Origin: Novosphingobium decolorationis
GTDB lineage: Bacteria > Pseudomonadota > Alphaproteobacteria > Sphingomonadales > Sphingomonadaceae
Length of the DNA stretch: 64,000 nt
NCBI RefSeq assembly: GCF_018417475.1
Contig: NZ_CP054856.1
Span: forward strand, 1,705,001 to 1,769,000
Reading direction: 5' to 3'
The translations under genes were made by a program, and so were the position numbers. The notes beneath the pieces were generated by a model that was not told the DNA's origin, ran no database searches, and was given only the letters and a program-made list of their open reading frames with translations. This document shows positions 2,301-17,878 of the stretch, piece by piece (within the stretch, counting starts at the first letter, position 1; each line of letters begins with the position of its first letter).

Positions 2301-2717
2301 ATGCGCGCGCTCTATCACACCAGCCGCTGGATCTTCGGATTGTGGTACCTGTTCTCGGGGGTGGAGTACTTCACCCCCTTCGAACTCCAGCCGCTCGGCA
2401 ATACGCCGCTGGGCCAGGAATTCACGCTGGCGCTCATCCACTCCGGGCTCTTCGCCTGGATCAAGGTGGCCGAGATCGCGATTGCAGTCCTTGTCCTTGC
2501 CGACCGCATGATGCCGCTCGTTGCGGCCGCAGCCGTGCCGCTGACGGTCGTCATCGCCTACTGGAACTTCGCGCTGGAATGGGGCGTCGTCGAAGTCGTC
2601 TTCGGCGCGCTGACGATCCTCTTCAACGCGGTCCTGCTCTGGCCCTATCGGGCCTATTACCGACCCACGCTCACCGCCTGGCGCGGGGAGCGGGATTTCT
2701 CGCTTTCACTCGACTGA
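2301..2717 (+). CDS. DoxX-like small membrane protein
   Basis: A 138-residue protein with about four hydrophobic segments (near residues 8-20, 47-65, 69-90 and 93-113), typical of DoxX/DoxD-like membrane proteins. The ATG at 2301 follows a GAGAGGA ribosome-binding site at about 2287-2293. It lies 44 bases after the TonB receptor and probably shares its transcript. Its 3' end overlaps the convergent transporter gene by 61 bases. DoxX-like proteins are widespread and mostly without assigned biochemical function, so no specific role is claimed. Confidence 0.75.
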   Translation: MRALYHTSRWIFGLWYLFSGVEYFTPFELQPLGNTPLGQEFTLALIHSGLFAWIKVAEIAIAVLVLADRMMPLVAAAAVPLTVVIAYWNFALEWGVVEVVFGALTILFNAVLLWPYRAYYRPTLTAWRGERDFSLSLD

Positions 2718-3952
2718 GGCGCGGGACGCGCGGCCCGTCGCACGACGGGCAGCAACATCGTGAGGCCCAGGCACAAGGCCACCGGCAGCGCGGCAAAGGC
2801 GAAGAACAGCGCAGCCCCTACATCTCCCTCGATGACCGCAGCGCCCAGCAAGGGGCCGCCGATGGCGCCGATCCGGGCCACCGCCACGGCAAGGCCAATG
2901 AGGCTGGAGAGCAGGCGCGGCGGGACGAGCCCCGAGGCCACCGCCAGGATCGCGACGTGCACGCCTGAGATGCCGCCGCCTGCGATCAGCAGGAGGATAC
3001 CCCAGCCCAGCCGCGTGGGCGGGACGAGGCCAAAGGCCAGCAGCGCCAGCCCTATCGCGCCGTAGCTTGTCGCCAGCACCACCGTCACCCGCCCCCCGTC
3101 AAGCATGCGGGCGAGCAGGAGCCCGATGACCATGCCTCCGAATTGCAGGAGCGAGACCGCATGGGCCGCCGTCTCCAGCGTGAAACCAGCGTTCGGCAGG
3201 ACCGTGGGCACCCAGGAATTGATATAGTAGAGCGCTGCGGCGTTGACCCCGTAGAGCACGCATATAAGCGCGGTGACGTAGAAGATGGGCCGGTGCAGCA
3301 ACTGCACCAGTGGCGCTCCTGAACCTGCCCCCTCCTCGACATCACCCGCGACCGCCGGGGATTCGGACAAGGCCAACCAGAGGAGGCCCAGCAGCAGCAA
3401 AGTTACAAGCCCCGGAAGGATGAAGATCGCCTGCCACCCGAAGGCCGCAACAAGCGGTGAGACCACCAGACCCGATCCCGCCGCGCCGAGTGGGATCGCC
3501 ATCGAGACAATCGTCATCGTGCTCGCCCGCCGACCGGGCCGCGCCAGTTCGGCGCTGAGCGCAGTGACGTTGGGTAGGCACGCGCCGAGGGCAAGGCCGG
3601 TGAGAAGCCGCCAGGCGGTAAACGCCTCGACGCTCTGGCCCGTGGCCGTCCCGAAGGTCGCCAGCGCCAGCACCGGCAGGACGAGGAGGATCACACGCCG
3701 CCGCCCGAACCGATCGCCCAGCGGCGCCAGCCCCACCGCGCCAAGACCCAGCCCCAGCAGAACGGCGGAGAGCGCGAGACCAAAGGTCTCGGGCGCATGG
3801 CCATAGGCCTGAACCAGGTGCGGCACGGCCAGCGGCATCGCGGTCAGGTCATAGCCGTCAAGCAGCATGACCGCGCCGCACAGGATCAGCGAGGTCCAGC
3901 GCGCGCGGGCAGAAAGCGCGGGCGCTGCATCCGGCAGGAGGGTCGCGCTCAT
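2657..3952 (-). CDS. MFS aromatic acid:H+ symporter (AAHS-type)
   Basis: A 431-residue major facilitator with 12 predicted membrane segments. The first helix contains LLDGYDLTAMPLAVP, close to the DGxD motif of the aromatic acid:proton symporter (AAHS) family, and the loop after helix 2 has GDRFGRRR, the MFS signature. It would bring an aromatic acid across the inner membrane. The start codon at 3952 overlaps the stop of the upstream NTF2-like gene as ATGA, so the two are translationally coupled. It is the last gene of a three-gene leftward operon starting at 5453 under the TAACG-N2-CGTTA operator. Substrate unknown. Confidence 0.85.
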   Translation of the reverse strand: MSATLLPDAAPALSARARWTSLILCGAVMLLDGYDLTAMPLAVPHLVQAYGHAPETFGLALSAVLLGLGLGAVGLAPLGDRFGRRRVILLVLPVLALATFGTATGQSVEAFTAWRLLTGLALGACLPNVTALSAELARPGRRASTMTIVSMAIPLGAAGSGLVVSPLVAAFGWQAIFILPGLVTLLLLGLLWLALSESPAVAGDVEEGAGSGAPLVQLLHRPIFYVTALICVLYGVNAAALYYINSWVPTVLPNAGFTLETAAHAVSLLQFGGMVIGLLLARMLDGGRVTVVLATSYGAIGLALLAFGLVPPTRLGWGILLLIAGGGISGVHVAILAVASGLVPPRLLSSLIGLAVAVARIGAIGGPLLGAAVIEGDVGAALFFAFAALPVALCLGLTMLLPVVRRAARPAPQSSESEKSRSPRQAVSVGR

Positions 3953-4839
3953 CGCCCCTGCCCCTGAGCGTCCCAGGGCGAGGGCATGTGGTAGGGCACG
4001 GTGATGAAGTTCGCCTCGACCTGGCGGATCGCGCCGGCCTCGATCTTGAAGACTTCGGAGAGATAGAACGTGTGCGGGCGGCGGATATGCGATTCCACTT
4101 CGGTTCCGTCGGTCAGGGTATAGCGCTCCAGCACGCCGCGATGGTCGATGAAGCCATGGGCCATGACCAGCCCGCGTTCCACGTCGACAAGCGGGAAGCG
4201 GCGCGCGCGCAGGCGATCGTCGTAACGGTACCAGCCGAGGCGAAACTGCGCCTCGCAGCCCAGCTTCGCAATGGGCAACATGAAGGCCGGATTGTTGGTC
4301 GTCTGTGTCCCGTTCTCGACCCTCTGGCAGTCCGGGTGAAAGGCGGTGAAGAGCTGCCCGTCGTTCTGCTCGAGCGTCGCGAAGTAGCCGTTGGCCAATG
4401 TCAGCAGCCGTTCGCGGGTCATCCGCTCGGCCTCGGGCACAAAGGCGTCCATGACCGGCTTGGCCTCGAACCTGGGATCGGGGAACTGCAGGGCCTCGTC
4501 GCGTTGGCGCACGACGATCATTTCGGCCTCGCAGACCTCGCCCGCCCCGCTCACGCCAAGGCGCAGCGCGGCGGCGGATTCGTCGCCGCTCTCGATCACC
4601 GTCGTGAACAGGCCGATCTGCCCCGTCTCGGGATCGCAGAAGCGAAAGTCGTAGGTACCCCGGCCGGTGATCGTCGCCCACAGCCCATCGCCCGGAAGCA
4701 GCGCGACGTTGTTCTCAGTGTGGAAGACATCGCGCGTCCAGGCCACCTGCGTCGGATCACGCGCGTCCAGGGCGGCCAGATAGCGGTCGAGCACGGCATA
4801 GAGCGCGGCGCGATCAAGCCCTGACGACAGGCCGCTCAC
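3949..4839 (-). CDS. NTF2-like fold protein, about 296 residues, function unknown
   Basis: An uncharacterised protein of 296 residues. An N-terminal helix (LDRAALYAVLDRYLAALDARD) resembles the start of SnoaL/NTF2 domains. A central stretch (LLTLANGYFATLEQNDGQLF) begins a second NTF2-like unit, followed by FHPDCQRVENG and a C-terminal strand-rich part with LSEVFKIEAGAIRQVEA, the usual ending of such folds. I therefore read it as a double-domain NTF2-like protein, similar to proteins annotated only as hypothetical. The start overlaps the stop of the upstream SnoaL gene (ATGA at 4836-4839) and its stop overlaps the symporter start, so it sits inside a coupled operon. Substrate and reaction are unknown; a catalytic role on an aromatic intermediate is inference from context. 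Confidence 0.75.
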   Translation of the reverse strand: MSGLSSGLDRAALYAVLDRYLAALDARDPTQVAWTRDVFHTENNVALLPGDGLWATITGRGTYDFRFCDPETGQIGLFTTVIESGDESAAALRLGVSGAGEVCEAEMIVVRQRDEALQFPDPRFEAKPVMDAFVPEAERMTRERLLTLANGYFATLEQNDGQLFTAFHPDCQRVENGTQTTNNPAFMLPIAKLGCEAQFRLGWYRYDDRLRARRFPLVDVERGLVMAHGFIDHRGVLERYTLTDGTEVESHIRRPHTFYLSEVFKIEAGAIRQVEANFITVPYHMPSPWDAQGQGR

Positions 4840-5453
4840 GCGCCCGCCTCCGCCGCCTGATCGCCGTAATGAAAGGGCGGCACGAAGACCTCGGGAAACG
4901 CCTCATATTCGACCGTGGGGGGAAGGTCTGGCTTCAGCCCGTCGATCTTGCGCAGAAGCGGGATGCCGCCCTCGTTCAGGCCCTTGTCGTACTCGCAATA
5001 GAAGGTGATGAAGCCATGGAGCGAGGCGATGCGCCAGGCCCCGTCCTCGCGCACGTAGCTGTTTTCATACGTCGCCTCGCCCCAGCGCGCGACCCCGCCC
5101 AGCCAGGCGATCTGGATGAAGGTGCGCCAGCGCGCCTTTGCCGTATCTCCCTCGACGTGGATCACGGGCTGGAGCTGCATGTGGTTGAACAATGCGCCGC
5201 GCTCGTAGGGCGGCAAGGCATGCAGGTAAGCCCGCACCCGCTCACGCCCGACATAGACGCCGCGCCCCGCAATCTCGAGCGTACCCTCGCGGGCGAACAG
5301 ATCCGCTGCCTTGTCCCACAGCCCCTTGTCGACATAGTATCCGTACATCGCCTGGAGGTTGGCGATCTCGGTCCAGTCGCGCGCGGCGCGTGCTTCTTCG
5401 CGCAGCTGCGCCACTTCGGCCCGCAACTGGGCAATTGCCGGATCCTGATCCAT
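4836..5453 (-). CDS. SnoaL/NTF2-like protein with N-terminal coiled coil
   Basis: A 205-residue protein. Residues 1-30 form a charged helix or short coiled coil (IAQLRAEVAQLREEARAARD), followed by a SnoaL-like domain (WTEIANLQAMYGYYVDKGLWDKAADLF) with a strand-rich C-terminal half (WGEATYENSYVREDGAWRIA). The ATG at 5453 is preceded by GGAGAGAGG, a good ribosome-binding site. It is the first gene of the leftward operon that continues into a second NTF2-like gene and an aromatic-acid symporter. Some sphingomonad NTF2-like proteins of this larger size act as cofactor-free lyases on lignin dimers (the diarylpropane lyase LdpA is the case I know). That makes an enzymatic role plausible, but I cannot assign it from sequence. 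Confidence 0.82.
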   Translation of the reverse strand: MDQDPAIAQLRAEVAQLREEARAARDWTEIANLQAMYGYYVDKGLWDKAADLFAREGTLEIAGRGVYVGRERVRAYLHALPPYERGALFNHMQLQPVIHVEGDTAKARWRTFIQIAWLGGVARWGEATYENSYVREDGAWRIASLHGFITFYCEYDKGLNEGGIPLLRKIDGLKPDLPPTVEYEAFPEVFVPPFHYGDQAAEAGA

Positions 5454-5635: not shown

Positions 5636-7108
5636 ATGACCCCTGAAGGCGTGGATATCCGCAACCCCGAGAAACTCTACATCGGTGGCAGCTGGATCGA
5701 ATCAACCGGCACCCAACGCTTCGAACTCGTCTCGCCCAACAGCGAGGAGGTGATCGGCGTGGTTGCCGACGCCACCGCCGCGGACATGGACAAGGCCGTT
5801 GCCGCCGCGCGCGAGGCTTTCGACACCGGCCCCTGGCCGCAGATGAGCCCGGCCGAGCGTGGGGCCGCCGTCCTGCGCTGGGCCGAGGAACTGGAGAAGC
5901 GCGAAGCCGAACTGTGCGCCTGCTGGACCGCGCAGGTCGGCGGCCTTTCCAGCTTTGCCCCGCAGATGCACGGCGGCGCGACCGCCACGATCAAGTTCAT
6001 CGCCTCGCTGGGCAAGGACTTCGAGTTCGTCGTGCGCCGCCCCAGCCAGATGGTCGACACCGCGCTTGTCGCCTACGAGCCGGTTGGCGTTGCCGCCTGC
6101 ATCGCGCCCTGGAACGCGCCTTACGGCATTCTTTCCAGCAAGGTCGCCTACGCGCTGGTTGCCGGCTGCACGGTCATCATGAAGCCCTCGCCCGAAACCC
6201 CGCTCGAAGCCTATATCATGGCCGAAGCGGCGGACGCGGCCGGCATCCCGGCGGGCGTCGTCAACCTGGTGTGCGGCGGGCGCGACGCGTCCGATCACCT
6301 CGTCAACAACCCCGGTATCGACAAGGTCAGCTTCACCGGCTCGACCATCGCGGGCAAGCGCATCGGCGAGGTCTGCGCGGGCCGCGTCGCGCGCTGCACG
6401 CTCGAACTGGGCGGCAAGTCGGCCGCCATCGTGCGCGACGACTTCCCGATCGAGGCCGCCGCCGCGATCCTGGGCAACACCATCACCGTGATGAGCGGGC
6501 AGGTCTGCGCCATGCTGAGCCGCGCCATTGTCACCAAAGCGCGCCACGACGAACTGGCCGATGCCATCGCCAGGGTCATGCAGGGCGTGAAAATCGGGGC
6601 CAGCACCGCGCCCGACACGCAGCTTGGTCCCCTTGCCATGAAGCGCCAACTCGAACGCGTCGAGGACTACATCGCCATCGGCAAGGCCGAAGGCGCCGAC
6701 CTCATCACCGGTGGCAACCGCCCGACCACGATGAACAAGGGCTACTTCCTCGAGCCCACCCTCTTTGCCAACGTCGACAACACGAGCCGCATCGCACAGG
6801 AAGAGATCTTCGGCCCGGTCCTCAGCCTCATCCCGGCCGAGGACGAAGAGGACGCGATCCGCATCGCCAATGAAAGCGCCTTCGGCCTCAACGGCTCGGT
6901 CCTGACCAACGACCACGAAGCGGCCTACCGCATCGGGCGCAAGGTGCGCGCGGGTGGTTTCGGCCAGAACGGCATGCGCCTCGAATTCGGCCTGCCCTTC
7001 GGTGGCTTCAAGCAGTCGGGCATCGGCCGCGAGGGCGGCGTGGAAGGTCTCTACTCCTTCCTCGAGAGCAAGACGATGCTGCTCGACGGCATGCCCTCGC
7101 AGCTGTGA
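5636..7108 (+). CDS. NAD(P)-dependent aldehyde dehydrogenase
   Basis: A 490-residue member of the aldehyde dehydrogenase superfamily, which oxidises an aldehyde to its acid. The sequence shows APWNAPYG, FTGSTIAGKRIG (nucleotide-binding region), ELGGKS with the general-base glutamate near residue 259, and SGQVCAM with the catalytic cysteine near residue 290. The C-terminal EEIFGPVLSL and FGGFKQSGIGRE blocks are also intact. The ATG at 5636 follows GAGGACACC. It opens a rightward operon with a SnoaL protein (GTG start overlapping this stop) and a short-chain dehydrogenase, controlled from the divergent operator at 5545. The substrate is probably an aromatic aldehyde produced by this cluster, which is inference. 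Confidence 0.9.
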   Translation: MTPEGVDIRNPEKLYIGGSWIESTGTQRFELVSPNSEEVIGVVADATAADMDKAVAAAREAFDTGPWPQMSPAERGAAVLRWAEELEKREAELCACWTAQVGGLSSFAPQMHGGATATIKFIASLGKDFEFVVRRPSQMVDTALVAYEPVGVAACIAPWNAPYGILSSKVAYALVAGCTVIMKPSPETPLEAYIMAEAADAAGIPAGVVNLVCGGRDASDHLVNNPGIDKVSFTGSTIAGKRIGEVCAGRVARCTLELGGKSAAIVRDDFPIEAAAAILGNTITVMSGQVCAMLSRAIVTKARHDELADAIARVMQGVKIGASTAPDTQLGPLAMKRQLERVEDYIAIGKAEGADLITGGNRPTTMNKGYFLEPTLFANVDNTSRIAQEEIFGPVLSLIPAEDEEDAIRIANESAFGLNGSVLTNDHEAAYRIGRKVRAGGFGQNGMRLEFGLPFGGFKQSGIGREGGVEGLYSFLESKTMLLDGMPSQL

Positions 7109-7542
7109 GCGCTTCGGCCGCGACGATGCCGTTGTGCGAAGCGGACTACATTCGGTACGTGGAGGCCTTCAACGCGCGCGACTACGCCGCGTTGGAGACC
7201 TTCTTCACCGACGACTTCGTGCTGGAGAACGCAGGCTTTGCGGTGCGCGGCAAGCCCGCGTTCCGCGCGTTCTACGCCTTCTTCCACGAGTACTGCCGTG
7301 AAACCGTCGACTTTCGCGGGTTCTATCCCGGCGCCGAGGGCTTCGTCGGCCATGTCGTCATCACCTTCGAGGGCCTGAAGGACCTCTCCCGCGAGGTGCT
7401 GGAGGCGCGTGGATTTTCCGGCATGTCGCTCGTGCCGAAAGGGGCACGGGTCGAGGTCGAGTTCCTGATCCTCTACAAGGTCGACGCGGCCGGCCTCATC
7501 CACCACATCAAGGGCGCGGTCTGGGAGCCGGAACGCCCCTGA
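7105..7542 (+). CDS. SnoaL-like (NTF2 fold) protein
   Basis: A 145-residue single-domain SnoaL-like protein. The start is GTG at 7105, overlapping the TGA of the aldehyde dehydrogenase, so it is translationally coupled. The domain opens with YIRYVEAFNARDYAALETFF and contains GKPAFRAFYAFFHEY. The gene at 12332 has almost the same layout (YDRYAAAFNARDYDAVYDFY, REAFRDFYGFLHDH), so the two are paralogues placed on opposite sides of the cluster. No catalytic residues can be assigned with confidence, and function is unknown beyond a probable small-molecule binding or lyase/cyclase role. Confidence 0.8.
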   Translation: MSASAATMPLCEADYIRYVEAFNARDYAALETFFTDDFVLENAGFAVRGKPAFRAFYAFFHEYCRETVDFRGFYPGAEGFVGHVVITFEGLKDLSREVLEARGFSGMSLVPKGARVEVEFLILYKVDAAGLIHHIKGAVWEPERP

Positions 7543-7698
7543 GCCGAGACCGATGCCCTGCACCTGCGCCTTGCAGGGCGGACGCTCCATGACCACATCC
7601 TGCCGCGACAGGCTCCATCCAGGGGCTTGGCGCGGCTTTGTTTTCCCGCACACCAGGGCCGTCACGACCACCCCGAAGAAGCGGGAAAGGAGCGCGAC

Positions 7699-8478
7699 AT
7701 GGCCCGCATTTTCGTCACCGGATCAACGCAGGGGATCGGTCGCAACGCCATCCAGACACTGATCGGCAACGGACACGATGTCATCCTCCATGCCCGCTCG
7801 AAAGAGCGCATCAACGCCTTTGGCGCGCTCGCCGACGTCAATACGGTCCTGACCGGCGATCTTGCCAGCCTCGAGGAGGTCCGCGCACTTGCCCGGGCGC
7901 TCAACGAAACGGGCCCTGTCGACGCGATCATTCACAACGCCGGGGTCATCGACTCGACGCGTGAGGTAACTCGCGAGGGCCTCCTGCGCGTCCTGATGGT
8001 GAACGCGATCGCCCCCTACATGCTCAGCCTGCTCGCCGAACGCCCTGCGCGCCTGATCTTCACCGGCAGCTCGATGCACTATGGCCATGAGGAAGCGCTC
8101 GACGACATGGACTGGCGCGAACGCCGCTGGTCGGGCGCGAGCGCTTATGGCGAGAGCAAGATGCTGCTGACGGCCATGGCCAACGGCCTTGCCCGCCACC
8201 TTCCCGACATCGCGTGCCACACCGTCGATCCGGGCTGGGTGCCCACCCGCATGGGCGGCGAATCGGCCAGCGATCCCCTCGACGAAGCCCACCTCACACA
8301 GTGCTGGCTTGCAACATGCCTGGACGGCGAGGCGGGAGCCAGCGGAGGCTACTGGCACCACATGGAGCGCCGCGAGCCCGATCCCAAGACGCTCGACACG
8401 AAGGTCCAGGACGCCGTTCTCACGCGCTTCGCCGCGCTATCGGGCGTCGCCATGTCCGCCGCTGCGTCGCGCCCATGA
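7699..8478 (+). CDS. Short-chain dehydrogenase/reductase family protein
   Basis: A 259-residue SDR protein. The nucleotide-binding motif is TGSTQGIG near residue 7, NAG appears as HNAGV, and the active-site pattern is the serine of FTGSSMHYG followed by a YGESK tetrad region (YxxxK). A late WVPTRMGG and WHHMERRE fit SDRs of the oxidoreductase/retinol dehydrogenase-like subgroup. The ATG at 7699 follows AAAGGAG; a longer frame upstream lacks a ribosome-binding site and family homology. It lies 156 bases after the SnoaL gene and is probably the third gene of the operon. It likely oxidises or reduces a carbonyl or alcohol in the pathway, inferred from family and context. Confidence 0.85.
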   Translation: MARIFVTGSTQGIGRNAIQTLIGNGHDVILHARSKERINAFGALADVNTVLTGDLASLEEVRALARALNETGPVDAIIHNAGVIDSTREVTREGLLRVLMVNAIAPYMLSLLAERPARLIFTGSSMHYGHEEALDDMDWRERRWSGASAYGESKMLLTAMANGLARHLPDIACHTVDPGWVPTRMGGESASDPLDEAHLTQCWLATCLDGEAGASGGYWHHMERREPDPKTLDTKVQDAVLTRFAALSGVAMSAAASRP

Positions 8479-8615: not shown

Positions 8616-9602
8616 TTGGCCCAGGCTGTCCCTCCCTTTTCCATCTCGCGGGCCGCCTTCGAGGCGATCACCCGCAGGGATTCGTGCGCGTCCGAGGGCG
8701 ACACGCAGAGTGACGGCACGCCCGTAGCGATCGGAGCCTTTTCGTGCGATCTGGGCGATCAGAGCCTGCGCTGGAACGAAGCGACTTTCGAGCTTTTCGG
8801 GTTCGCCCCTGGCGAGAAGGTCGACCGGCGCGAGGTGCTCGACATGTATGCCCCCGAATCGCGCCGCCTCCTTGAGGTGCGACGCGCGCAGGCCATCGAA
8901 GTGCTCGGGGCCTTTTCTCTGGAGGCGCAGATATATACCGCCGAGGGCGAGGAACGCTGGCTGCGCATCCATGCCCATGTCGAATCGCGCAATGGCCAGG
9001 CCCTGCGGCTGCACGGCACCAAGCAGGACATCACCCACGAGCGGCTCTATTTGCGCAAACTGGAAGAACTCGCCTTCACCGATCCGGTCTCCGGGCTGGG
9101 CAACCGCGCGCTGTTCCACGCCGCCTTTCTTCATGCGCCCCACGCGCCTTCCTCGCCAGCCTCCCGCAACATGGCCTCGGCCGGCGCACTGGTGCTGTTC
9201 GACTTCGACCACTTCAAGGCCGTCAACGACGCCTTCGGCCACATCGCAGGCGATGCCTGCCTTGCCCGCTTCGGTGCGCACTTGCGCAGCGCCTTTCCCG
9301 AAGCCCTGCTGCTCGCCCGCATCGGGGGCGACGAGTTCGCCATGGTGCTTGCGCAGAACCAGGACGAGGACCAGTTGCAGCAGCGCCTGAACGCTGCCCT
9401 GCACATGCTCGCCACGCCGTTCGACTGGGAGGGAACGTCCCTCTCGATCCGCGCCTCGTTCGGTCTCGCCCTGCCCCGCGCCGGAGAGCCGTCCTCTCCG
9501 AACGAGCTCTTCCGCCGGGCCGATGCCGACCTCTACCGCTCGAAGGAGCGCCGCACGCCGCGCGCGTCTAGTCCAGACGTTGCGAGTTGGGATCGGTCCT
9601 GA
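8616..9602 (+). CDS. PAS-GGDEF diguanylate cyclase
   Basis: About 328 residues with a PAS-like sensor region (residues about 40-145; FSCDLGDQSLRWNEATFELFGF to HGTKQDITHERLYL) and a GGDEF domain (residues about 150-315). The active-site loop is IGGDEF and the nucleotide/metal region is DFDHFKAVNDAFGH, so it should make cyclic di-GMP. I see no membrane segments, so it is probably cytoplasmic. The start is uncertain: the only plausible codon is TTG at 8616 without a clear ribosome-binding site, and there is no in-frame ATG upstream before a stop. Its 3' end overlaps the convergent SnoaL gene by 35 bases. Confidence 0.82.
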   Translation: MAQAVPPFSISRAAFEAITRRDSCASEGDTQSDGTPVAIGAFSCDLGDQSLRWNEATFELFGFAPGEKVDRREVLDMYAPESRRLLEVRRAQAIEVLGAFSLEAQIYTAEGEERWLRIHAHVESRNGQALRLHGTKQDITHERLYLRKLEELAFTDPVSGLGNRALFHAAFLHAPHAPSSPASRNMASAGALVLFDFDHFKAVNDAFGHIAGDACLARFGAHLRSAFPEALLLARIGGDEFAMVLAQNQDEDQLQQRLNAALHMLATPFDWEGTSLSIRASFGLALPRAGEPSSPNELFRRADADLYRSKERRTPRASSPDVASWDRS

Positions 9603-10496: not shown

Positions 10497-10504
10497 GACG
10501 CACC

Positions 10505-11032: not shown

Positions 11033-11039
11033 GCCATCC

Positions 11040-11801
11040 TCATCCGATTTCCAGCGCGCCGCCATCGACCATCAGGTTGGCCGCGGTCACGAAACTTGCC
11101 TCGTTGGAGGCGAGAAAGAGCACCGCATCGGCCACTTCCTTCGCCGCGCCCATGCGCTTCATCGGCACGGCCGCGATCATCTGCTCGCGCATCGCCTCGA
11201 CCGCCGCCTCGTCCATACCGGGATTGCGGTAGAGGAGCGGCGTCTCGATGGGGCCCGGGCTCACCATGTTGACCCGGATCCCGCGCGCAACATACTCGCC
11301 CGCGAACTGGCGCATGGCGAGCGCAAGGCCCGCCTTGGCCGCGCCATAGGCCGCGTTGCCGGGCACGAAGGCATGGCCGCCGATAGATCCGGTGACGACA
11401 ATCGCGCCCCCTTCGCCCATCAGCCGCACCGCCTTCTGCATGGCAAAGACACAGCCCCTGAGATTGATCGAATGGACCTGGTCCCAGTATTCGCTCGTCA
11501 TGTCCTCGATCAGCGAAAAGCCGCCCATCCCGGCGTTGACCATGAGGACATCGATGCCGCCCTCCTCGGCCGCCACGGTCTCGTAGAAGGCGTCCATCGC
11601 GGCAAGGTCGGAAATGTCGACCGCGTTGCCCTTCGCCCCGGGGATCGAGGCGACGGCGCTGGCGATGGTCTGCGGGTCCCGGCCAGTGAGGCGCACGCCC
11701 GCGCCTTCCTCGGCAAACCCTTGTGCGCAGGCCAGCCCGATGCCGCTGTTGCCGCCCAGGACAACCACCCGCTTGCCGATGAAGCGATCCGCGCGCGCCA
11801 T
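11040..11801 (-). CDS. Short-chain dehydrogenase/reductase (classical SDR)
   Basis: A 253-residue classical SDR. It has the nucleotide-binding GGNSGIG near residue 16, VNAGMGG near residue 89, the catalytic serine in TGSIGG, YGAAKAG (YxxxK) near residue 151, and the typical ending VTAANLMVDGGALEIG. It would oxidise or reduce a hydroxyl/carbonyl group with NAD(P). The start at 11801 is only one base from the stop of the upstream SnoaL gene. Second gene of the leftward operon starting at 12219. Substrate unknown. Confidence 0.88.
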   Translation of the reverse strand: MARADRFIGKRVVVLGGNSGIGLACAQGFAEEGAGVRLTGRDPQTIASAVASIPGAKGNAVDISDLAAMDAFYETVAAEEGGIDVLMVNAGMGGFSLIEDMTSEYWDQVHSINLRGCVFAMQKAVRLMGEGGAIVVTGSIGGHAFVPGNAAYGAAKAGLALAMRQFAGEYVARGIRVNMVSPGPIETPLLYRNPGMDEAAVEAMREQMIAAVPMKRMGAAKEVADAVLFLASNEASFVTAANLMVDGGALEIG

Positions 11802-11802
11802 C

Positions 11803-12219
11803 TCAGAACGGTCCGATTGGGTTGGGGCTGTCCACCGGGACTTCCATCATCACGTCCCAGTGCTCGACCACCATCGTGTTCTCGAGCCGGAAGATATCCA
11901 TGATCGCGTAGCCCGTATCCCCCGGCCAGCGGCGCAGGTGGTAGTGCGCAATGACGTGGTCGCCATCGGCAAAGATGCGCTTGATGTCATGGCACGGCTC
12001 GGGCGAATGGACCTTGGCCTCGCGCAGGAACTGCTTGAGCGGCTCGGTGCCCTGCCCCACCATCTGGTTGTGCTGGATGTAGTCGGGCACGATGAACCGG
12101 TCGACCGCATCGGGATCGAGCGCGTCGAGCACCTCGCGGATCATCGTGCGTACGTGGTCGATGTTCGCCTGTTCCTGCGCGGTATAGACGCGCGTCTCGG
12201 GCTCTGTCGTCGGGTGCAA
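11803..12219 (-). CDS. SnoaL-like (NTF2 fold) protein, TTG start
   Basis: A 138-residue SnoaL-like protein with VPDYIQHNQMVGQGTEPLKQ and MDIFRLENTMVVEHWDVMME, the same fingerprint as the genes at 9568 and 10071. I chose the TTG at 12219 because AAGGGAGAGAG lies just upstream and because a longer frame would run through the operator at 12266. It is the first gene of a five-gene leftward operon (SnoaL, SDR, DUF3237, SnoaL, SnoaL), with very short gaps or overlaps throughout. Confidence 0.78.
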   Translation of the reverse strand: MHPTTEPETRVYTAQEQANIDHVRTMIREVLDALDPDAVDRFIVPDYIQHNQMVGQGTEPLKQFLREAKVHSPEPCHDIKRIFADGDHVIAHYHLRRWPGDTGYAIMDIFRLENTMVVEHWDVMMEVPVDSPNPIGPF

Positions 12220-12265
12220 GCTCTCTCTCCCTTCGCTGCATCGGGGCAGTCGTTGCGCATAATCG

Positions 12266-12277
12266 TAACGCTCGTTA
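12266..12277. promoter_or_regulatory. TAACG-N2-CGTTA operator, copy 2 (divergent promoter)
   Basis: A perfect inverted repeat TAACG-CT-CGTTA between the leftward five-gene SnoaL/SDR operon (start 12219) and the rightward SnoaL gene at 12332. The flank GTTGCGCATAATCG repeats that of copy 1, so conservation extends beyond the palindrome on one side. Confidence 0.6.
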
Positions 12278-12331
12278 TCAATATGTGCAAGGCGGAGCGA
12301 CACGCCATTTCGACAAGAGAGGAGCTGCCCG

Positions 12332-12727
12332 ATGACCCGCGAGGACTACGACCGCTACGCCGCGGCCTTCAACGCGCGCGACTACGATGCCGTCTACGAC
12401 TTCTACGCGCCCGGCGCGCACCTCACCTTCTTCGGCGTCGACCTCGCCACGCGTGAGGCGTTCCGCGATTTCTACGGCTTCCTGCACGACCACGTGGAGG
12501 AAACGCTGACCATCGAACGCTTCGCCGCCAGCGCCGAACTCGTTGCCCTCGAAGGGGTAATCCGCATCGAAGCGCGCAAGGACCTGACCGCAGAAGCGCT
12601 CGCCGCGCAGGGGCTCGACCAGTTCTTCCCGATCCGCAAGGGCGAGGTGCAGGAACTTCGCCAGTACATCCATTACCACGTGACGAATGGCCTGTTCACG
12701 GGCGTCTCGTGCGCGCTGATGGATTGA
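12332..12727 (+). CDS. SnoaL-like (NTF2 fold) protein
   Basis: A 131-residue SnoaL-like protein starting at an ATG preceded by AGAGGAGCT. It has the opening YDRYAAAFNARDYDAVYDFY, REAFRDFYGFLHDHVEE in the middle and YIHYHVTNGLFTG at the end. It is the paralogue of the 7105 protein. It lies alone on the right side of the divergent operator at 12266, possibly cotranscribed with the S41 peptidase gene 66 bases downstream. Role unknown. Confidence 0.8.
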   Translation: MTREDYDRYAAAFNARDYDAVYDFYAPGAHLTFFGVDLATREAFRDFYGFLHDHVEETLTIERFAASAELVALEGVIRIEARKDLTAEALAAQGLDQFFPIRKGEVQELRQYIHYHVTNGLFTGVSCALMD

Positions 12728-12793: not shown

Positions 12794-14266
12794 ATGTCGC
12801 CCATGATCCGAGTTCCTGCCGCGGCGCTCCTCGCCGCCACCTGCCTCAGCGCGCCCCTGTCCGCCCAAGCCCAAGCCGCGCAATCCAAGGCGCCGCGCCC
12901 GTGGGAGGCGGCAGGTCCTGTGCAGAGCATCGCACGCAGCGATGGCTCCACCGATCCGGCCGTGCGCGGCATCTGGCGTTCGCGCGGCTATGGCTGGCTG
13001 CTCGAGATCGACGAGGCTGGCGTCATCCGGCACCAGGAGGGAACGACCTGCTATCGCCCGCCCTTGGAGCGGGGCGCGCAAAGCGAGATGGACAGCGCGC
13101 GCTACCGCTATTTCCGCGCGCTTCCCGGCGGTCAGGCGGCGATCTTCCAGTTGCTGGAGGGGGACACCAACGTCGTCTTCGACCGCCTCCCCGCCTTGCC
13201 CGAAGCCTGCAGCGCGCCGACCGATCGCACACCCGGCGCCGTAGCCGCGGCCTTTCTCGACCATTTCGAACGCCACTACGCCTTCTTCGACAGGCGCCCT
13301 CCCGGGTTTGCGGCGCGCCGCGCGGCGCTGCGCGCAAAGATGCATCCTGGCATGGACGAGGCCCAGTTGTGGGACGCACTTGCCGCCTTCATGGAAGGGC
13401 TCTCCGACAGCCACACCAAGCTCTTGGGTGAAGTCGACGGAGAACGCCGCCGCGTGCAGGACGGTCAGGGGCAGACCCTCCCGCGCATCCGTGCCCGCGA
13501 GGGTGGCGAACCCGCCTGGCTCGGCGCGCTCATCGCGCAGACCACCGCGAAGCTGGGTAAGAGCGCGCGCACGGTCGGAGGCGGGCGCATCGTGTGGGGC
13601 GTGATCGACGGGCGCGTGGGCTATCTGCAGGTCTTTGTCATGGGTGGGTTCACCGAGCGCAGCGACTTTGCCACGCCCCAATGGGCCGAGGCGGAAATGG
13701 CGGCATTCCAGGATGCACTCGACCAGGCCATGGCCGACTTTGCCGGGCTCGACGGCGTGATCGTCGATCTTTCCAACAACCGGGGCGGATGGGACCAGAT
13801 CGCCAAGGCTCTGCCCGCCCGCTTCCTCGACACCGCGCAGACGGGCTTTACCACCCGCGCCCGCGGATCAGGGCTTGCCCCGTTCCCTCATGCCATCACG
13901 CCCGCCACGGGTGCGCGTTTCGCAGGGCCGGTCTACGTGATTACGAGCGATGTGACGGTCAGCGGCGGCGAACTCGCCACGCTCGCCTTTCGCCAGAACC
14001 CGCGCGTAACGCAGGTCGGCACCCGCACGCGCGGCGCCTTCTCCACGCCTCTTGCCAAGCCGCTTCCCAACGGCTGGCTGCTTGAACTCGCGAACGAGAC
14101 CTTCGCCGCGCCCGATGGCACGGTCTACGAGGAGACCGGCCTTGCGCCGGAGATCGAACTGGAGATCTACCCCGAAGAGGCCCCCGTCGCCGGCCACTGG
14201 AACGCGGTCGAGACGGTCGCCGCGATGGTGGCGCACGTCCGAGAGCGCACCGCTCAGCTCCGGTAG
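12794..14266 (+). CDS. Secreted S41-family peptidase-like protein
   Basis: A 490-residue protein with an N-terminal signal peptide (hydrophobic AAALLAATCLSAPLSAQAQA), so it is periplasmic or exported. Residues about 270-460 resemble the tail-specific protease / IRBP core of family S41: GYLQVFVMGG, LDGVIVDLSNNRGG and SDVTVSGGELATLAFRQNP, where the serine of VSGGE is the likely nucleophile. An alternative ATG at 12803 gives a more usual signal peptide. No PDZ domain is evident. Its stop overlaps the convergent flavoenzyme gene by 13 bases. Whether it belongs to the catabolic pathway or is an unrelated neighbour cannot be told. Confidence 0.8.
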   Translation: MSPMIRVPAAALLAATCLSAPLSAQAQAAQSKAPRPWEAAGPVQSIARSDGSTDPAVRGIWRSRGYGWLLEIDEAGVIRHQEGTTCYRPPLERGAQSEMDSARYRYFRALPGGQAAIFQLLEGDTNVVFDRLPALPEACSAPTDRTPGAVAAAFLDHFERHYAFFDRRPPGFAARRAALRAKMHPGMDEAQLWDALAAFMEGLSDSHTKLLGEVDGERRRVQDGQGQTLPRIRAREGGEPAWLGALIAQTTAKLGKSARTVGGGRIVWGVIDGRVGYLQVFVMGGFTERSDFATPQWAEAEMAAFQDALDQAMADFAGLDGVIVDLSNNRGGWDQIAKALPARFLDTAQTGFTTRARGSGLAPFPHAITPATGARFAGPVYVITSDVTVSGGELATLAFRQNPRVTQVGTRTRGAFSTPLAKPLPNGWLLELANETFAAPDGTVYEETGLAPEIELEIYPEEAPVAGHWNAVETVAAMVAHVRERTAQLR

Positions 14267-15813
14267 CGCGCAGGCCAGATCCCCTGCTTGCCCGGCGCCA
14301 GGATGCCATGGGGATCAAGCGCATCCTTGAGCACGCCGTTGAGCCGCCCCATCGCGCCCACCCCGGAGGCGTCCACGCCGTAGTTCTGGGTTGCCGCCAC
14401 CGTATCCATGGCATCGATATGGGTGCGGTACTCGCCATAGCCTTCTTTCGCCGCGTCCGCGATCAGCGTGTCCATCAGCTGGGGCACCGCGCGCGCCATC
14501 TGGGCGTTGTCGCGGTCGTAGAGGATCTCGTTGATATTGATGATCGCCCGCGCGCCTACCGAGAAGGCCCCGTAATAGTCGATGCCCGCCGCTTCGAAGC
14601 GGGCCCGCGTGCTTTCGAACTGCGCCTGCGCGCGCGCGCCATCGGCAGGCAGGATCGGGGAGAAACCAAGGTGCCCCCCGCGCCCGCCGTACCAGTCGAT
14701 CATGGCCATGTCGCGGGTCGAGGGAATGCCCGCATGGCTCGCGCCAAAGTCGTCGCCCTGGCGCCACAGCCGGGGCTCGGGACGCTGGCCCAACTGCGCC
14801 GCGAGCGCCTCGGCGACGACCTCGAACTTGGCCCGGATCACCTTTTCGGGCCCATAGAAGTTGAGCTGCGAATTCCACCAGCCGATGCCCAGCTGGCTGC
14901 GGATGCTTGCCCCCACGTCCTCGGGCAGAAGGCCCTCGCCCTCGTACCATTGCGCGCGGGGCCCCACGAACGAGGCAATGCCGACATAGCTGACCCAGGC
15001 CGGGTCGTGATCGATCAGCCCGCGCTGGCGAAGCGGGTAGAGCGCATCGACCCCGCGTGCGAGATCGCTGGCGTCGGGCAGCGCATAGTCCACGGACAGT
15101 GTCGCCTCGGGCGCGGGCATGAGCCACAGGCCAAGGCGCGTCACGATCCCGAAGTTCGACTGGCAGAACATCTGGTCCCAGGCCGGGCCGTAGGTGTCGC
15201 GCGACAGGTGCCAGGTCGCCGAGCCCTCCATGGCCCCGGTGCCCGTGCGCACCAGCGATCCGTCTGGGAGCATCACCTCCAGACCGCAGATCTGCGCGCC
15301 ATGATCGCCGTAGGGCTGCGGCCCCTTGCCACGTTCGAGCGCATTGCCCGCCACGCTCCCCCAGGCATTGCCCGGCACCGAGAGCCAGAGCGGATGTCCG
15401 CGCCTGGTGAGTTCGTCGTAGAGATCGTAGAACCCCACCCCCGGCTCGACCACGCAGACGCCCCGCTTCTCGTCGATCTCGTGAATGCGCCGGAGCCCGG
15501 AAAGGTCGACCACCACGGCGCCTGCCTGGACCGGTGCAGCGCCGCCATAGCCGAAGTTCTTGCCGCGCGAGATCGGCCAGAGCGGGACCTTGTGCACGTT
15601 GGCGGCCAGCACGACTTCGCGCAGTTCCTCGACCGAGCGCGGGGCCACCGCGCCCGAAGGTTCATGGCGGGCAAGATCGAAGCCCATCTGATCGCTGTAG
15701 GCCTGCCGGTCCTCCTCGCCCGCATGGACGCGGTCGGAACCGGTAACCTGCGCAACCGTTTTCAGGAACGCGGCAACCTCGTGCCTATTTACATTCACTC
15801 GGCTGTGCTCCAC
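14254..15813 (-). CDS. Vanillyl-alcohol oxidase / 4-cresol dehydrogenase-family flavoenzyme
   Basis: A 519-residue FAD enzyme of the VAO/PCMH family, which oxidises para-substituted phenols through a quinone methide. The FAD-binding part shows AVAPRSVEELREVVLAANVH, PLWPISRGKNFGYGG, GVGFYDLYDEL and LSVPGNAWGSVAGNALERG. The C-terminal part has FSVGARAIININEILYDR and LKDALDPHGILAPGKQGIWP. No cytochrome c subunit gene is adjacent, which favours an oxidase or an unlinked electron acceptor. I prefer the GTG at 15813 (AGGAG ten bases upstream); ATGs at 15831 and 15852 are possible but poorly spaced or inside the operator. It is divergent from the marR gene. Vanillyl alcohol, eugenol-type or propylphenol substrates are possible. 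Confidence 0.85.
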   Translation of the reverse strand: MEHSRVNVNRHEVAAFLKTVAQVTGSDRVHAGEEDRQAYSDQMGFDLARHEPSGAVAPRSVEELREVVLAANVHKVPLWPISRGKNFGYGGAAPVQAGAVVVDLSGLRRIHEIDEKRGVCVVEPGVGFYDLYDELTRRGHPLWLSVPGNAWGSVAGNALERGKGPQPYGDHGAQICGLEVMLPDGSLVRTGTGAMEGSATWHLSRDTYGPAWDQMFCQSNFGIVTRLGLWLMPAPEATLSVDYALPDASDLARGVDALYPLRQRGLIDHDPAWVSYVGIASFVGPRAQWYEGEGLLPEDVGASIRSQLGIGWWNSQLNFYGPEKVIRAKFEVVAEALAAQLGQRPEPRLWRQGDDFGASHAGIPSTRDMAMIDWYGGRGGHLGFSPILPADGARAQAQFESTRARFEAAGIDYYGAFSVGARAIININEILYDRDNAQMARAVPQLMDTLIADAAKEGYGEYRTHIDAMDTVAATQNYGVDASGVGAMGRLNGVLKDALDPHGILAPGKQGIWPARYRS

Positions 15814-15846
15814 GGAAATTTCACTCCTCATCCCTCCGGCGATAAG

Positions 15847-15858
15847 TAACATTCGTGA
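15847..15858. promoter_or_regulatory. Degenerate TAACG-N2-CGTTA site, copy 4
   Basis: TAACA-TT-CGTGA: same spacing as copies 1-3 with one change in each half-site. It lies between the flavoenzyme gene and the divergent marR gene, directly before a TTGACA hexamer, so it could give weak autoregulation. Confidence 0.4.
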
Positions 15859-15900
15859 TTATCTTGACAACCAGCAAAGCTCCTGCCCAAATGTCCGCCA

Positions 15901-16452
15901 ATGGCTGACACCGATCAGGAATCCTTGGAAGATGGAGCTGACAGCGGCGCGCTGGAGGCGATGGAAACATCGAGCCCGCACGCGGAGATTCTGCACCGCC
16001 TGCTCAAGCTGTCGAACCGGTTGATGACACCGTTCTCAGTCAACCTGGAGCACCAGTACAAGATCAGCATCAACGAGTTCCGCATGCTCATGCTGATCGG
16101 GCGCTACCCGCATTCGGCCAGCCACGAACTGGCCGAACGTACCGGCGTCAACTCGATGAGCGTCTCGCGCGCGGTCTCTGCCCTGGAGAAACATGGCCGC
16201 GTCAACGTTGAGCGCGATGAGACGAATCGCCGCCGCAAGCGGCTGACACTGACCGAGGAAGGCGAACGCCTCTACACGATCATGCGCCCACAGACCGAGC
16301 GCGTGGCCGACTATCTCCTCTCCGATCTGAAGCCCCACGAAGTGGCGATGTTCGACCACATCCTGAGCACGCTGATCACGACCTTGGAAGCCACCGACGC
16401 GCAAGGGCAATCGCTCTTCCTCGAGCGCACCCGCCCCACCGACGAGGCCTGA
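15901..16452 (+). CDS. MarR-family transcriptional regulator
   Basis: A 183-residue MarR-type regulator. A dimerisation helix (HAEILHRLLKLSNRLMTPF) leads into the winged helix: INEFRMLMLIG, SASHELAERTGVNSMSVSRAVSALEKHGRV (recognition helix region), then the wing with RDETNRRRKRLTLTEEGERLY. It is divergent from the flavoenzyme gene with a weak copy of the TAACG-N2-CGTTA motif between them. As the only regulator in the first 17 kb, it is the natural candidate to repress the three strong copies of that motif, with a pathway intermediate as inducer. No clear ribosome-binding site precedes the ATG. Confidence 0.87.
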   Translation: MADTDQESLEDGADSGALEAMETSSPHAEILHRLLKLSNRLMTPFSVNLEHQYKISINEFRMLMLIGRYPHSASHELAERTGVNSMSVSRAVSALEKHGRVNVERDETNRRRKRLTLTEEGERLYTIMRPQTERVADYLLSDLKPHEVAMFDHILSTLITTLEATDAQGQSLFLERTRPTDEA

Positions 16453-16581
16453 TCGCCGGGCATCGCAGGGCCTTGCCAGGCAGGTAGCGCGCCTCCTCCA
16501 TTCCGCTCCCCCCATGCGCCGCCGCGTCATCGTGGCTGCGAAGCGTGCACGTGCGCCTTGCCTCGTTGGCCCCACATACTA

Positions 16582-16593
16582 TAACGTTCGTTA
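16582..16593. promoter_or_regulatory. TAACG-N2-CGTTA operator, copy 3
   Basis: A perfect TAACG-TT-CGTTA, extended to ATAACG-TT-CGTTAT (16581-16594), 49 bases upstream of the Bcr/CflA efflux gene start. The AT-rich surrounding (TACTATAACG, TTATTATGAT) is likely the promoter itself, so occupation would block transcription. Confidence 0.62.
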
Positions 16594-16642
16594 TTATGAT
16601 GATCGACGCGCGCACGCACCGAACGGCCGGGACGACGGCCAT

Positions 16643-17878
16643 ATGACCTCCCCATCCCCCCAGAACCCAGCCGCCGCGGCGAGTGGAAAACCCACGCTCG
16701 GCTTCGGCATCGCGCTGGGCTTCCTGTCCGCCCTCGGCCCCTTCGCCATCGACCTCTATCTACCGGCCATGCCGGAGATGGCGGGCGCGCTGCAGGGCAA
16801 CGAGAACGCGGTGCAGCGCACGCTCTCGGCCTTCTTCTTCGGCCTCGCCTTCGCACAGATCCCGATCGGCGCGCTGGCGGATCGCTTCGGACGCCGCACG
16901 CCGCTGATCTTCGGCCTTGCACTCTTCATCCTTGCCTCCTTCGCCTGCAGCCTCGCCACGAGCCTCGACCAGCTCGTGGCGCTGCGCTTCGTGCAGGGCA
17001 TGGGCGCCTGTGCGGGCACCAGCAGCGCGCGCGCAATCATCCGCGACCTGCACCGCGGGCACCACGCGGCACGGCTGATGGCCTTTACCTTCCTCATCAT
17101 CGGCATCTCGCCCATGCTGGCGCCGCTCCTGGGAAGCGGCCTCCTCCAGTTCGTGTCCTGGCGCGGGCTCTTCGTGATCCTCTCGGGCGCAGGTCTGCTC
17201 GCCGCGATCTGCGTGGTCCTGTTCCTGCCCGAAACGCTGGCGCCCGAGAACCGCGCGCCCGACTGGAGCGGCCTCCCCCGTGCTCTCGCCGCGCTGCTTG
17301 GCAACGGGCGGTTCGTCGGCTGGGCCGTGGTCGCGGGTCTTGCCACCACGGTCCCCTTCGCCTTCGTGACCGCCGCCCCGTTTGTCTACTCGGGCGTCTA
17401 TGGCCTCGCTCCTGTCTGGTTCAGCGTGTTGCTCGCGGTGAATGCAGGCATGTCGATCATTGCCACCCAGATCGCCCCGCACCTGCTCAAGCGCCTGGGG
17501 GCCAGCCGCCTTGCCCTGCGCGCCGCGCTGGGAGCGCTGGCCATCACCGCCGCACTTGGACTTGCCTCGACGCTTCTGCCCGGCCGCGTGCCGCTCGCCG
17601 GGTTTCAGCTTTTCTCCGTGCTGCTCTTCATGGTCGCAGGGCTCGTCCTGACCCCGGCGGCGACGAGCGCGCTCGATTCGGTGCGCGAAGGCATTGGCGC
17701 GGCGGCCGGGCTCCTGGGCACGATCCAGCTCGCCGTCACCGCCCTCGCCAGCGCGGCCGTCACCCTCTGGCCGCCGGTATCGCTCCAGCCGCTGACGCTC
17801 GTTCTCGGGTCCGCATTCGCGCTGATGCTCATGATCGTCCTTGCCATTTCGCGCAGCGCCGCTCCCGAGCAGGCCTGA
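16643..17878 (+). CDS. Bcr/CflA-family MFS drug efflux transporter
   Basis: A 411-residue, 12-helix major facilitator. LGPFAIDLYLPAMPEMA in helix 1 is the hallmark of the Bcr/CflA drug:H+ antiporter subfamily, followed by GALADRFGRRTPL (MFS loop motif) and MGACAGTSSARAIIRDLHRG. It would export a toxic small molecule, here probably a phenolic substrate or intermediate. The ATG at 16643 gives the usual family N-terminus. The gene sits behind the third operator copy, so it would be derepressed together with the catabolic operons. Confidence 0.87.
   Translation: MTSPSPQNPAAAASGKPTLGFGIALGFLSALGPFAIDLYLPAMPEMAGALQGNENAVQRTLSAFFFGLAFAQIPIGALADRFGRRTPLIFGLALFILASFACSLATSLDQLVALRFVQGMGACAGTSSARAIIRDLHRGHHAARLMAFTFLIIGISPMLAPLLGSGLLQFVSWRGLFVILSGAGLLAAICVVLFLPETLAPENRAPDWSGLPRALAALLGNGRFVGWAVVAGLATTVPFAFVTAAPFVYSGVYGLAPVWFSVLLAVNAGMSIIATQIAPHLLKRLGASRLALRAALGALAITAALGLASTLLPGRVPLAGFQLFSVLLFMVAGLVLTPAATSALDSVREGIGAAAGLLGTIQLAVTALASAAVTLWPPVSLQPLTLVLGSAFALMLMIVLAISRSAAPEQA

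Follow-up and report, generated by a model that had tools for sequence, protein, structure and literature searches.

The window, i.e. the whole 64,000-nucleotide stretch of the Novosphingobium decolorationis genome analysed here (NZ_CP054856.1, positions 1,705,001 to 1,769,000), covers the downstream half of a locus that spans about 28 kb, is cut by the window edge and extends from 1,694,804 to 1,722,878 in genome C1. The locus probably breaks down a phenolic dimer of the lignin or lignan type, with enzymes of the same types as in the pin pathway of Novosphingobium rhizosphaerae LY, to which it would form a sister lineage. This reading rests on gene content, homology, synteny and fold; genes alone were read, and from them we infer reactions, substrate and the roles of the NTF2-type proteins. 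The enzyme types are, as judged from homology, firmly assigned. A preliminary description of the window had proposed a gene cluster that degrades a bulky phenolic. This is supported, for a compound of the lignin type, and NTF2 proteins belong to the conserved members of the cluster. It had found no known pathway to match; the enzymes other than NTF2 proteins are, however, of the types of the pin pathway (PMC12607616). The upstream half, being outside the window, could not be seen in that description.

Relation to the pin pathway

In LY, pinoresinol is converted, by way of lariciresinol, imperanene and diguaiacylbutadiene, to vanillin and coniferaldehyde by the reductase PinZ, the GMC oxidase PinY, the DUF3237 decarboxylase PinX, the p-cresol-type flavocytochrome PinWV and the LSD-type dioxygenase PinU (PMC12607616). 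Homologues of the pin genes are tabulated in a review (PMC12997858, Table 1), from which the LY gene order was also taken. Every one of these enzyme types is present in the N. decolorationis locus, the DUF3237 protein within the window, the others just upstream. An LSD-type dioxygenase gene (PF03055; C1 1,703,093-1,704,481) directly precedes the TonB receptor gene at window positions 13-2256; before it, Pfam identifies a GMC oxidase (L014:16352-17962, L014 being the stretch that covers the upstream half), a pyrroloquinoline quinone (PQQ) alcohol dehydrogenase, an NmrA-type, PinZ-like reductase, a SnoaL_4 gene, a cytochrome c and a p-cresol-type flavoprotein.

The reductase is too distant to be counted as a PinZ orthologue: it is 46–51% identical to PinZ-type proteins, which share 69–94% identity with one another (L076, at 56–65%, was left out), and it is the one match to PinZ-type reductases at E 1e-15 in its genome. 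In a quick reductase tree, a sister clade of 13 rows (SH-aLRT 100) stands beside 19 PinZ rows (95), with long-branch warnings for L058, L132 and L190. The dioxygenase tree splits alike, with supports of 85 and 89 and with L070 in between. Given the distance of the reductase from the PinZ type and the parallel split of the dioxygenase tree, the locus is, on sequence, a sister lineage of pin and not the pin cluster itself. Its flavocytochrome and LSD-type enzyme belong to the same families as PinWV and PinU, but are only 41–46% and 54–58% identical to the genes of PinZ-type and related loci. The DUF3237 protein is of PinX type, being 65–74% identical to those of PinZ-type loci (L070, L071, L074, L075, L156, L159 and L160), which were used in this comparison in place of LY PinX; the one from L074 fits pinX SLG_07290 of strain SYK-6 by position. 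The GMC oxidase, compared with SYK-6 and not with LY PinY, is 73% identical to a gene fitting by position SLG_27980, a pinY homologue.

PinZ can be placed in SYK-6: the one strong match of that genome, at 766,014-766,955 (the next is at 34%), fits SLG_07320. A relative of this protein, from L075, features His143, Tyr144, Met151, Trp256, Met261 and Phe264 at exactly the pocket positions published for NrPinZ (PMC12817470). Five of the seven published pocket residues (Arg82, Tyr144, Trp256, Met261, Phe264) are kept by the N. decolorationis reductase, where the Pro242-Trp256 stretch, which holds the extra loop in PinZ, has the same length. Its matches among solved structures (QOR2, TMR, 3e48, 5f5n, SimC7) are the five kinds also listed for NrPinZ (PMC12817470). 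On these grounds it is read as performing the same type of reaction on a related, possibly different, lignan.

It might also be that the sequences diverged while the locus remained a functionally equivalent pin pathway, with pinoresinol as its substrate. The enzyme set is identical in type and, among 194 Novosphingobium genomes, 60 have a PinZ type (at least 62% identity), while 9 of the 69 with any match have one at 47–50% only; such mutual exclusion, with few genomes, could nevertheless be due to chance. Of the eight 47–50% loci that were fetched, seven join the clade of the window reductase and one (L190) falls outside; the ninth, from strain EaN21-2, was not among the loci placed in the tree. 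As the deep split is common to the reductase and dioxygenase trees, and the pocket is changed at position 143 and probably at 151, equivalence to pin appears a somewhat unlikely explanation.

L190 (genome G267) may be seen as a third pin-like lineage: GMC oxidase, TonB receptor, aldehyde dehydrogenase (ALDH), LSD, reductase and DUF3237 genes are found together, each about 48–60% identical to the best query of either type.

Gene content of the locus within the window

The genes are listed by position and strand, with the supporting evidence in brackets.

13..2256, +: TonB-dependent receptor, first gene of the window, part of the upstream module (Pfam TonB_dep_Rec and Plug)
2301..2717, +: small DoxX-like membrane protein (weak DoxX match, below cut-off)
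2660..3952, -: MFS transporter, AAHS-like, MFS1 (Pfam MFS_1; best NCBIfam model AAHS, below cut-off)
3949..4839, -: predicted tandem NTF2-type protein, NTFa (AlphaFold2 model and Foldseek)
4836..5453, -: SnoaL_4 protein, SNOb, distant LdpA paralogue (Pfam)
5636..7108, +: ALDH, probably of the BzaB/SLG_07270 group (Pfam; position and identity pattern)
7105..7542, +: SnoaL_2 protein, SNOc (Pfam)
7627..8478, +: SDR-type oxidoreductase, SDRa, lineage-specific (Pfam)
8616-9602, strand n/a: PAS-GGDEF gene, amid catabolic genes (Pfam)
9568..10074, -: SnoaL/SnoaL_2 protein, SNOd (Pfam)
10071..10496, -: SnoaL_2 protein, SNOe (Pfam)
10505..11065, -: DUF3237 protein of the PinX/PhcF/PhcG decarboxylase family (Pfam, 1.5e-36; family function from PMC12607616)
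11040..11801, -: classical SDR, SDRb, conserved operon partner (Pfam)
11803..12303, -: SnoaL/SnoaL_2 protein, SNOf (Pfam)
12332..12727, +: SnoaL_2 protein, SNOg, divergent from SNOf (Pfam)
12794-14266, strand n/a: S41-family peptidase, beside SNOg (Pfam)
14254..15852, -: VAO/eugenol-oxidase-type flavoenzyme (Pfam FAD_binding_4; PDB matches VAO, EUGO and 4-allylsyringol oxidase)
15901..16452, +: MarR-type regulator, MarR1 (Pfam)
16514..17878, +: Bcr/CflA-type efflux MFS transporter (NCBIfam TIGR00710, above cut-off)

The seven NTF2- or SnoaL-like genes of the preliminary description were all found at the same starts, six by Pfam and the seventh by modelling. They lie between 3949 and 12727, i.e. 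in 8.8 kb where 9 kb had been indicated, amid two SDRs, an ALDH and the DUF3237 protein, and the VAO-type flavoenzyme comes right after them. The other neighbours named there were also confirmed, except that the TonB receptor lies just outside the range then described, and four genes had been overlooked (DoxX-like, PAS-GGDEF, S41 and MarR). For the efflux pump, the score exceeds the Bcr/CflA cut-off. AAHS ranks first among the models for the "aromatic-acid symporter", which nevertheless stays under the threshold of each of the 25 shown. The PAS-GGDEF protein is perhaps a substrate sensor.

The counterpart locus in SYK-6

An orthologous locus is found in SYK-6 at 3,001,714-3,021,010, with matches to 14 gene families at 41–87% identity: cytochrome 72%, flavoprotein 80%, DUF3237 87%, LSD 64%, GMC 73%, SNOd 70% (a second copy, 64%), SNOe 71%, SNOf 41%, SNOb 72%, NTFa 69%, MarR 67%, MFS 51% and two ALDHs, 71% and 78%. 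The SYK-6 DNA was compared without annotation, and gene names were set by position and identity pattern. By this procedure lsdF SLG_27970 corresponds to the LSD, which falls in the same clade as that of N. decolorationis, and the pinY homologue SLG_27980 to the neighbouring GMC gene; one ALDH is probably bzaA SLG_27910. A sister-type flavoprotein is present in SYK-6, although no pinW is listed for this strain in PMC12997858, Table 1. SDRb and SNOg have no match in the 58 kb around the locus. Neither a published pathway assignment for the SYK-6 locus nor a characterization of the SnoaL genes around its locus tags was found in a literature search that covered few subscription journals.

Of two SYK-6 copies that are 65% identical to each other, the ALDH at 5636-7108 shares 78% identity with that at 3,011,795 and 65% with that at 759,426; it probably belongs, by sequence, to the BzaB/SLG_07270 group described in PMC5353671. 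It is not DesV, as it is 46% identical to the DesV-fitting SYK-6 copy versus 78% to the BzaB-fitting one. LigV was similarly rejected for the ALDH at 21976-23400, 33% identical to the copy at the expected position of ligV (SLG_07060) and 71% to the BzaB-adjacent ALDH.

The same chemistry might be directed not at a furofuran lignan with beta-beta linkage but at a dimer of the beta-5 (phenylcoumaran) or beta-1 type, or at a breakdown product, for instance a free stilbene or a diaryl acid. The DUF3237 enzymes PhcF and PhcG act in a beta-5 route (PMC12997858), the 58 kb stretch around the SYK-6 counterpart is without a PinZ-type gene, and, in lysates, LSD5 (LsdF) of SYK-6 favoured lignostilbene over the beta-5 stilbene (PMC8191317). 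Against this, the reductase largely retains both the pocket and the loop length of the PinZ type, and the DUF3237 protein is 46% and 42% identical to the adjacent SYK-6 pair fitting phcG and phcF, compared to 63–74% in loci with PinZ-type or related reductases. We regard such a substrate as rather unlikely.

Conservation across related loci

The frequency of each gene was evaluated around DUF3237 relatives: of 171 loci found, 80 named ones were retained, reaching up to 10 kb on each side, and matches at 40% identity or above were counted. SNOf is present in 72 of the 80 and SDRb in 71, the two together in 70; SNOg follows (48), then MarR1 (47), NTFa (41), LSD (29), PQQ (23) and MFS1 (18). Much less frequent are SNOb and SNOd (9 each), SNOe (8), SNOc (6), the PAS-GGDEF gene (4), SDRa (2) and the S41 peptidase (2), the latter only in L084 and L085, the closest of the 80.

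The closest named locus is that of Novosphingobium profundi EaN21-2 (90–99% identity over the locus genes). Novosphingobium sp. RL4, from rhizosphere soil of Rheum palmatum, shares the whole series flavoprotein-cytochrome-reductase-PQQ-GMC-LSD-TonB-DoxX-ALDH-DUF3237-SDR-SNOf-SNOg-MarR-MFS-FerA at 55–95% identity, its DUF3237 protein being 95% identical to the window one. Six further Novosphingobium loci (L191-L196) keep the upstream series, whole or largely; in L193, no GMC, LSD or DoxX gene was seen. In RL4 and five of these (L191, L192, L194-L196), the TonB receptor follows the LSD-type gene and the DoxX-like gene adjoins the receptor.

The locus might be just an assembly of unrelated catabolic genes, brought side by side in a lignin island. 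The island also includes LdpA, another LSD and one or more glutathione S-transferase genes, and the S41, SDRa and PAS-GGDEF genes are rare in related loci. We consider this improbable, given that DUF3237, SDRb and SNOf recur jointly with the upstream series across many named genera.

As the RL4 series does without the other five, only SNOf and SNOg are core members among the seven NTF2-type genes. This bears on the earlier suggestion of a pathway "built around" seven NTF2 proteins, in which these would catalyze the successive steps of a largely cofactor-free route. The presence of seven such genes, with four translationally coupled junctions, speaks for it, as does the fact that LdpA and PcfL are NTF2 lyases (PMC12997858). 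Yet the RL4 operon has just two of the seven, SNOc, SNOd, SNOe and SNOb are among the least frequent genes in the related loci, and the core steps are covered by redox enzymes: the enzymes other than NTF2 proteins are of NAD(P)H, FAD, heme, PQQ and iron types. A route of this kind is thus very improbable.

Grouping and folds of the NTF2-type proteins

Genes of this type are crowded far above chance expectation. Counting SnoaL_2 and SnoaL_4 only, SnoaL (PF07366) being outside this search, 13 loci in the genome exceed the curated cut-off; 6 of them have their starts inside 7.7 kb and 10 inside 75 kb. Over 20,000 random placements, a span of 7.7 kb received 4 at most, and at least 3 in 0.24% of cases. 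Pfam assigns SNOb to SnoaL_4, the genes at 7105, 10071 and 12332 to SnoaL_2 and those at 9568 and 11803 to SnoaL/SnoaL_2. Four-base overlaps of stop and start are found at four junctions (4836/3949, 3949/MFS at 2660-3952, ALDH/7105 and 10071/9568). Pairwise BLAST distributes the seven proteins into four sets (9568, 10071 and 11803; 7105 and 12332; 4836; 3949), not into the three motif subgroups previously indicated. An eighth, SnoaL_4-type gene, SNOu, lies upstream, between cytochrome c and reductase (L014:12578-13174; C1 1,697,578-1,698,174); it was matched in 19 of the 134 loci searched (17 distinct), and the SYK-6 copy is 69% identical.

SNOf is the most conserved NTF2 member of the window set. 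Fifteen aligned rows keep Asn47, Tyr75, Gln77, Asp115, Asp136 and the Glu-His-Trp-Asp motif at 147-150. The structure model has a mean pLDDT of 80.6, with the first 34 residues poor, and the true start may be about 35 codons downstream of the called one. The best solved relative is 3g0k, i.e. Saro_2880 of N. aromaticivorans (50% identity in the Foldseek alignment, E 2.5e-38 by sequence), three locus tags from Saro_2877, the pinX of strain F199 (PMC12997858, Table 1).

NTFa was not matched by NCBIfam, nor by Pfam at E 0.001; raising the limit to E 1 gave only noise of non-NTF2 type. Two successive alpha+beta units appear in its AlphaFold2 model, built from 21 sequences (mean pLDDT 93.2, pTM 0.92). 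The top Foldseek matches are the two-domain epoxide hydrolases Lsd19/MonB (E 3e-7 to 3e-5), where the domain arrangement differs, as the TM value over the whole length is only about 0.33; next come proteins with a single NTF2-type unit, among them SnoaL2, AclR and ketosteroid isomerase. On this model, NTFa is read as a tandem protein with two NTF2 domains. In loci of the L181-L184 type, NTFa and PQQ genes stand directly before DUF3237, and from the gene order in other loci we infer that R9J51_00390/00395 of LY are the PQQ and NTFa homologues. This would fit two LY genes upstream of pinX, in which insertions cut fitness, although deletion did not abolish growth (PMC12607616).

For SNOb, the nearest solved structures by sequence are 8abv/8abt (E 7e-14), 8abv being LdpA (PMC11476836). 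Formaldehyde is removed by the NTF2 lyases LdpA and PcfL, in the case of LdpA via a quinone methide (PMC12997858). Asp42 and His91 of SNOb align with an Asp and a His of LdpA (chain 8abu has Gln at the His position) and would correspond to the His-Asp dyad, stated to be the catalyst in such proteins (PMC11476836). The sequence relation, in contrast, is not a close one, SNOb being 29% identical over 168 residues to the LdpA of its own genome. SNOb is therefore not LdpA itself; that place is taken by an orthologue at L015:2876-3724 (C1 1,667,876-1,668,724), about 30 kb before the reductase, which matches LdpA chain 8abt at E 2e-112. A bile-acid dehydratase was also considered for SNOb, and dropped, the match to BaiE being weaker than that to LdpA.

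An LdpA orthologue, 67–72% identical to the N. decolorationis one, is present within the fetched stretch in 13 of 19 distinct loci with a PinZ-clade reductase, in agreement with the LY ldpA homologue R9J51_00435 near pinZ; none was found in the 12 other loci of the sister clade, where most stretches are only about 20 kb long. Since LdpA is frequent in the former loci and was not seen in the latter, the sequence data suggest that SNOb fills an LdpA-like slot in the present locus.

A second LSD-type gene lies at C1 1,662,571-1,663,968, about 4 kb from the LdpA orthologue; the two are likely to form a beta-1 dimer route in the same island.

Proposed breakdown route

The dimer would be taken up via the TonB receptor, and the PinZ-family NADPH reductase would open a furan ring. 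The GMC oxidase, the PQQ dehydrogenase and an ALDH could then oxidize the free CH2OH to an acid, from which the DUF3237 enzyme would remove CO2, opening the second ring. The flavocytochrome, the VAO-type enzyme or both may convert the phenol to a quinone methide, which would lose formaldehyde to give a diene, to be cleaved into two aldehydes by the LSD-type dioxygenase; ALDHs, FerA/FerB, O-demethylase and LigAB would complete the breakdown. Most steps would use redox or metal enzymes, since the locus holds the pin enzyme types. The NTF2 proteins, as conserved co-members, may supply a lyase or tautomerase step, most likely acting on unstable, quinone-methide-like intermediates, with SNOb as an LdpA-like lyase or dehydratase and SNOf, SNOg and NTFa as tautomerases, dehydratases or binding proteins.

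A number of observations weigh against such a route. The reductase has Gln at position 143, where PinZ has His, and position 151 is probably not Met (Ala, by ungapped count). Reductase and PQQ genes have no match in the 58 kb around the SYK-6 locus, and the reductase is matched in just 10 of the 80 DUF3237 loci, within at most 10 kb on each side; ring opening is therefore possibly not a fixed step. A GMC oxidase of the N. decolorationis type (40% or above) is present in 3 of the 80; others carry one at 36–40%. As for the NTF2 proteins, DUF3237 proteins 95–99% identical to the window one occur with differing NTF2 sets (RL4, L086, L087); none of the six essential pin genes of LY is of NTF2 type, though LY has the ldpA homologue (PMC12607616, PMC12997858), and the LY transposon screen on pinoresinol did not bring this homologue up (PMC12607616).

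The sister-lineage reading can be extended, but doubtfully so, to a second widespread sphingomonad pathway for lignans or dilignols, shared by SYK-6, directed to a dimer outside the range of pin, and with NTF2 proteins, SNOb above all, catalyzing quinone-methide deformylation or tautomerization, a step for which the pin work (PMC12607616) names no separate enzyme. If the reading of the locus is right, an environmental Novosphingobium and SYK-6 would share a concrete gene set for a beta-beta or related dimer lacking an assigned breakdown; lsdF and the SYK-6 pinY homologue would gain a pathway, and a new reductase specificity would stand beside PinZ. It would also show whether the NTF2 proteins recurring in such clusters, one of them with a solved structure (3g0k), are enzymes. 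Carbon-carbon linked dimers remain after lignin depolymerization, so such genes are wanted for engineering.

Flanking genes

Genes for ferulate breakdown and ring cleavage, along with folate enzymes, are found in the downstream part of the window.

18079..18921, +: p-hydroxycinnamoyl-CoA hydratase/lyase, FerB type (NCBIfam NF006588, 457.8 bits; cut-off 276)
19129..21294, -: ADP-forming acyl-CoA ligase, FerA-like (Pfam domain set; adjoins ferB)
21976..23400, +: aromatic ALDH (Pfam; 71% to a SYK-6 ALDH, probably BzaA by its position in PMC12997858, Table 1)
28054..29463, -: syringate/vanillate O-demethylase, DesA/LigM type (NCBIfam)
33338..34757, +: protocatechuate 4,5-dioxygenase, LigA (33338-33889) and LigB (33912-34757) (Pfam LigA, LigB)

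The name FerA is assumed from the gene context. The O-demethylase passes the cut-offs of both DesA (825.5 bits; 800) and LigM (641.4 bits; 580). A MetE-like protein at 24834-26374 is followed by a SnoaL_4 gene; the two are matched (40% or above) in 24 and 18 of the 80 DUF3237 loci, and have perhaps a role in methyl-group handling after O-demethylation. The best NCBIfam models for a Zn alcohol dehydrogenase at 23575-24696 include mycothiol- and glutathione-dependent formaldehyde dehydrogenases, far under their cut-offs; such an activity would fit, as the proposed chemistry releases formaldehyde. Upstream, between catabolic genes, a reading frame at L014:5685-6602 resembles, by eye, an intron-type reverse transcriptase.

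Comparison with known systems

With the pinZYXWVU genes, the locus shares a PinZ-family reductase, a GMC oxidase, a member of the DUF3237 decarboxylase family, a flavocytochrome and an LSD-type dioxygenase; the likeness extends to neighbouring genes, as homologues of SNOf, SDRb, NTFa, PQQ and ALDH are present in PinZ-type loci such as L181-L184. It differs from pin by its separate reductase and dioxygenase clades, by gene order, by the presence of SNOb, instead of which many PinZ-type loci have an LdpA orthologue, and by the extra NTF2 genes and the VAO-type enzyme.

The phc pathway for dehydrodiconiferyl alcohol in SYK-6 (PhcCDFG) similarly proceeds from a GMC oxidase to DUF3237 decarboxylases and then to an LSD. 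The window DUF3237 protein, however, is only 42% and 46% identical to the adjacent SYK-6 pair fitting phcF/phcG. Two adjacent DUF3237 genes are also found in each of the phcF/phcG-type loci L079, L080 and L082; SNOf, SDRb and NTFa have no match in these three stretches, nor in the SYK-6 phc stretch (L204).

Like the gamma-formaldehyde lyases LdpA and PcfL, SNOb is an NTF2 protein, with Asp and His at the positions of LdpA, but it is distant in sequence, and a separate LdpA orthologue is located elsewhere in the genome. For SNOf, the closest system is Saro_2880, from another organism and from the pin-type side of the family, whose solved structure, 3g0k, was deposited without an assigned function; the pin context would provide a setting for this orphan structure.

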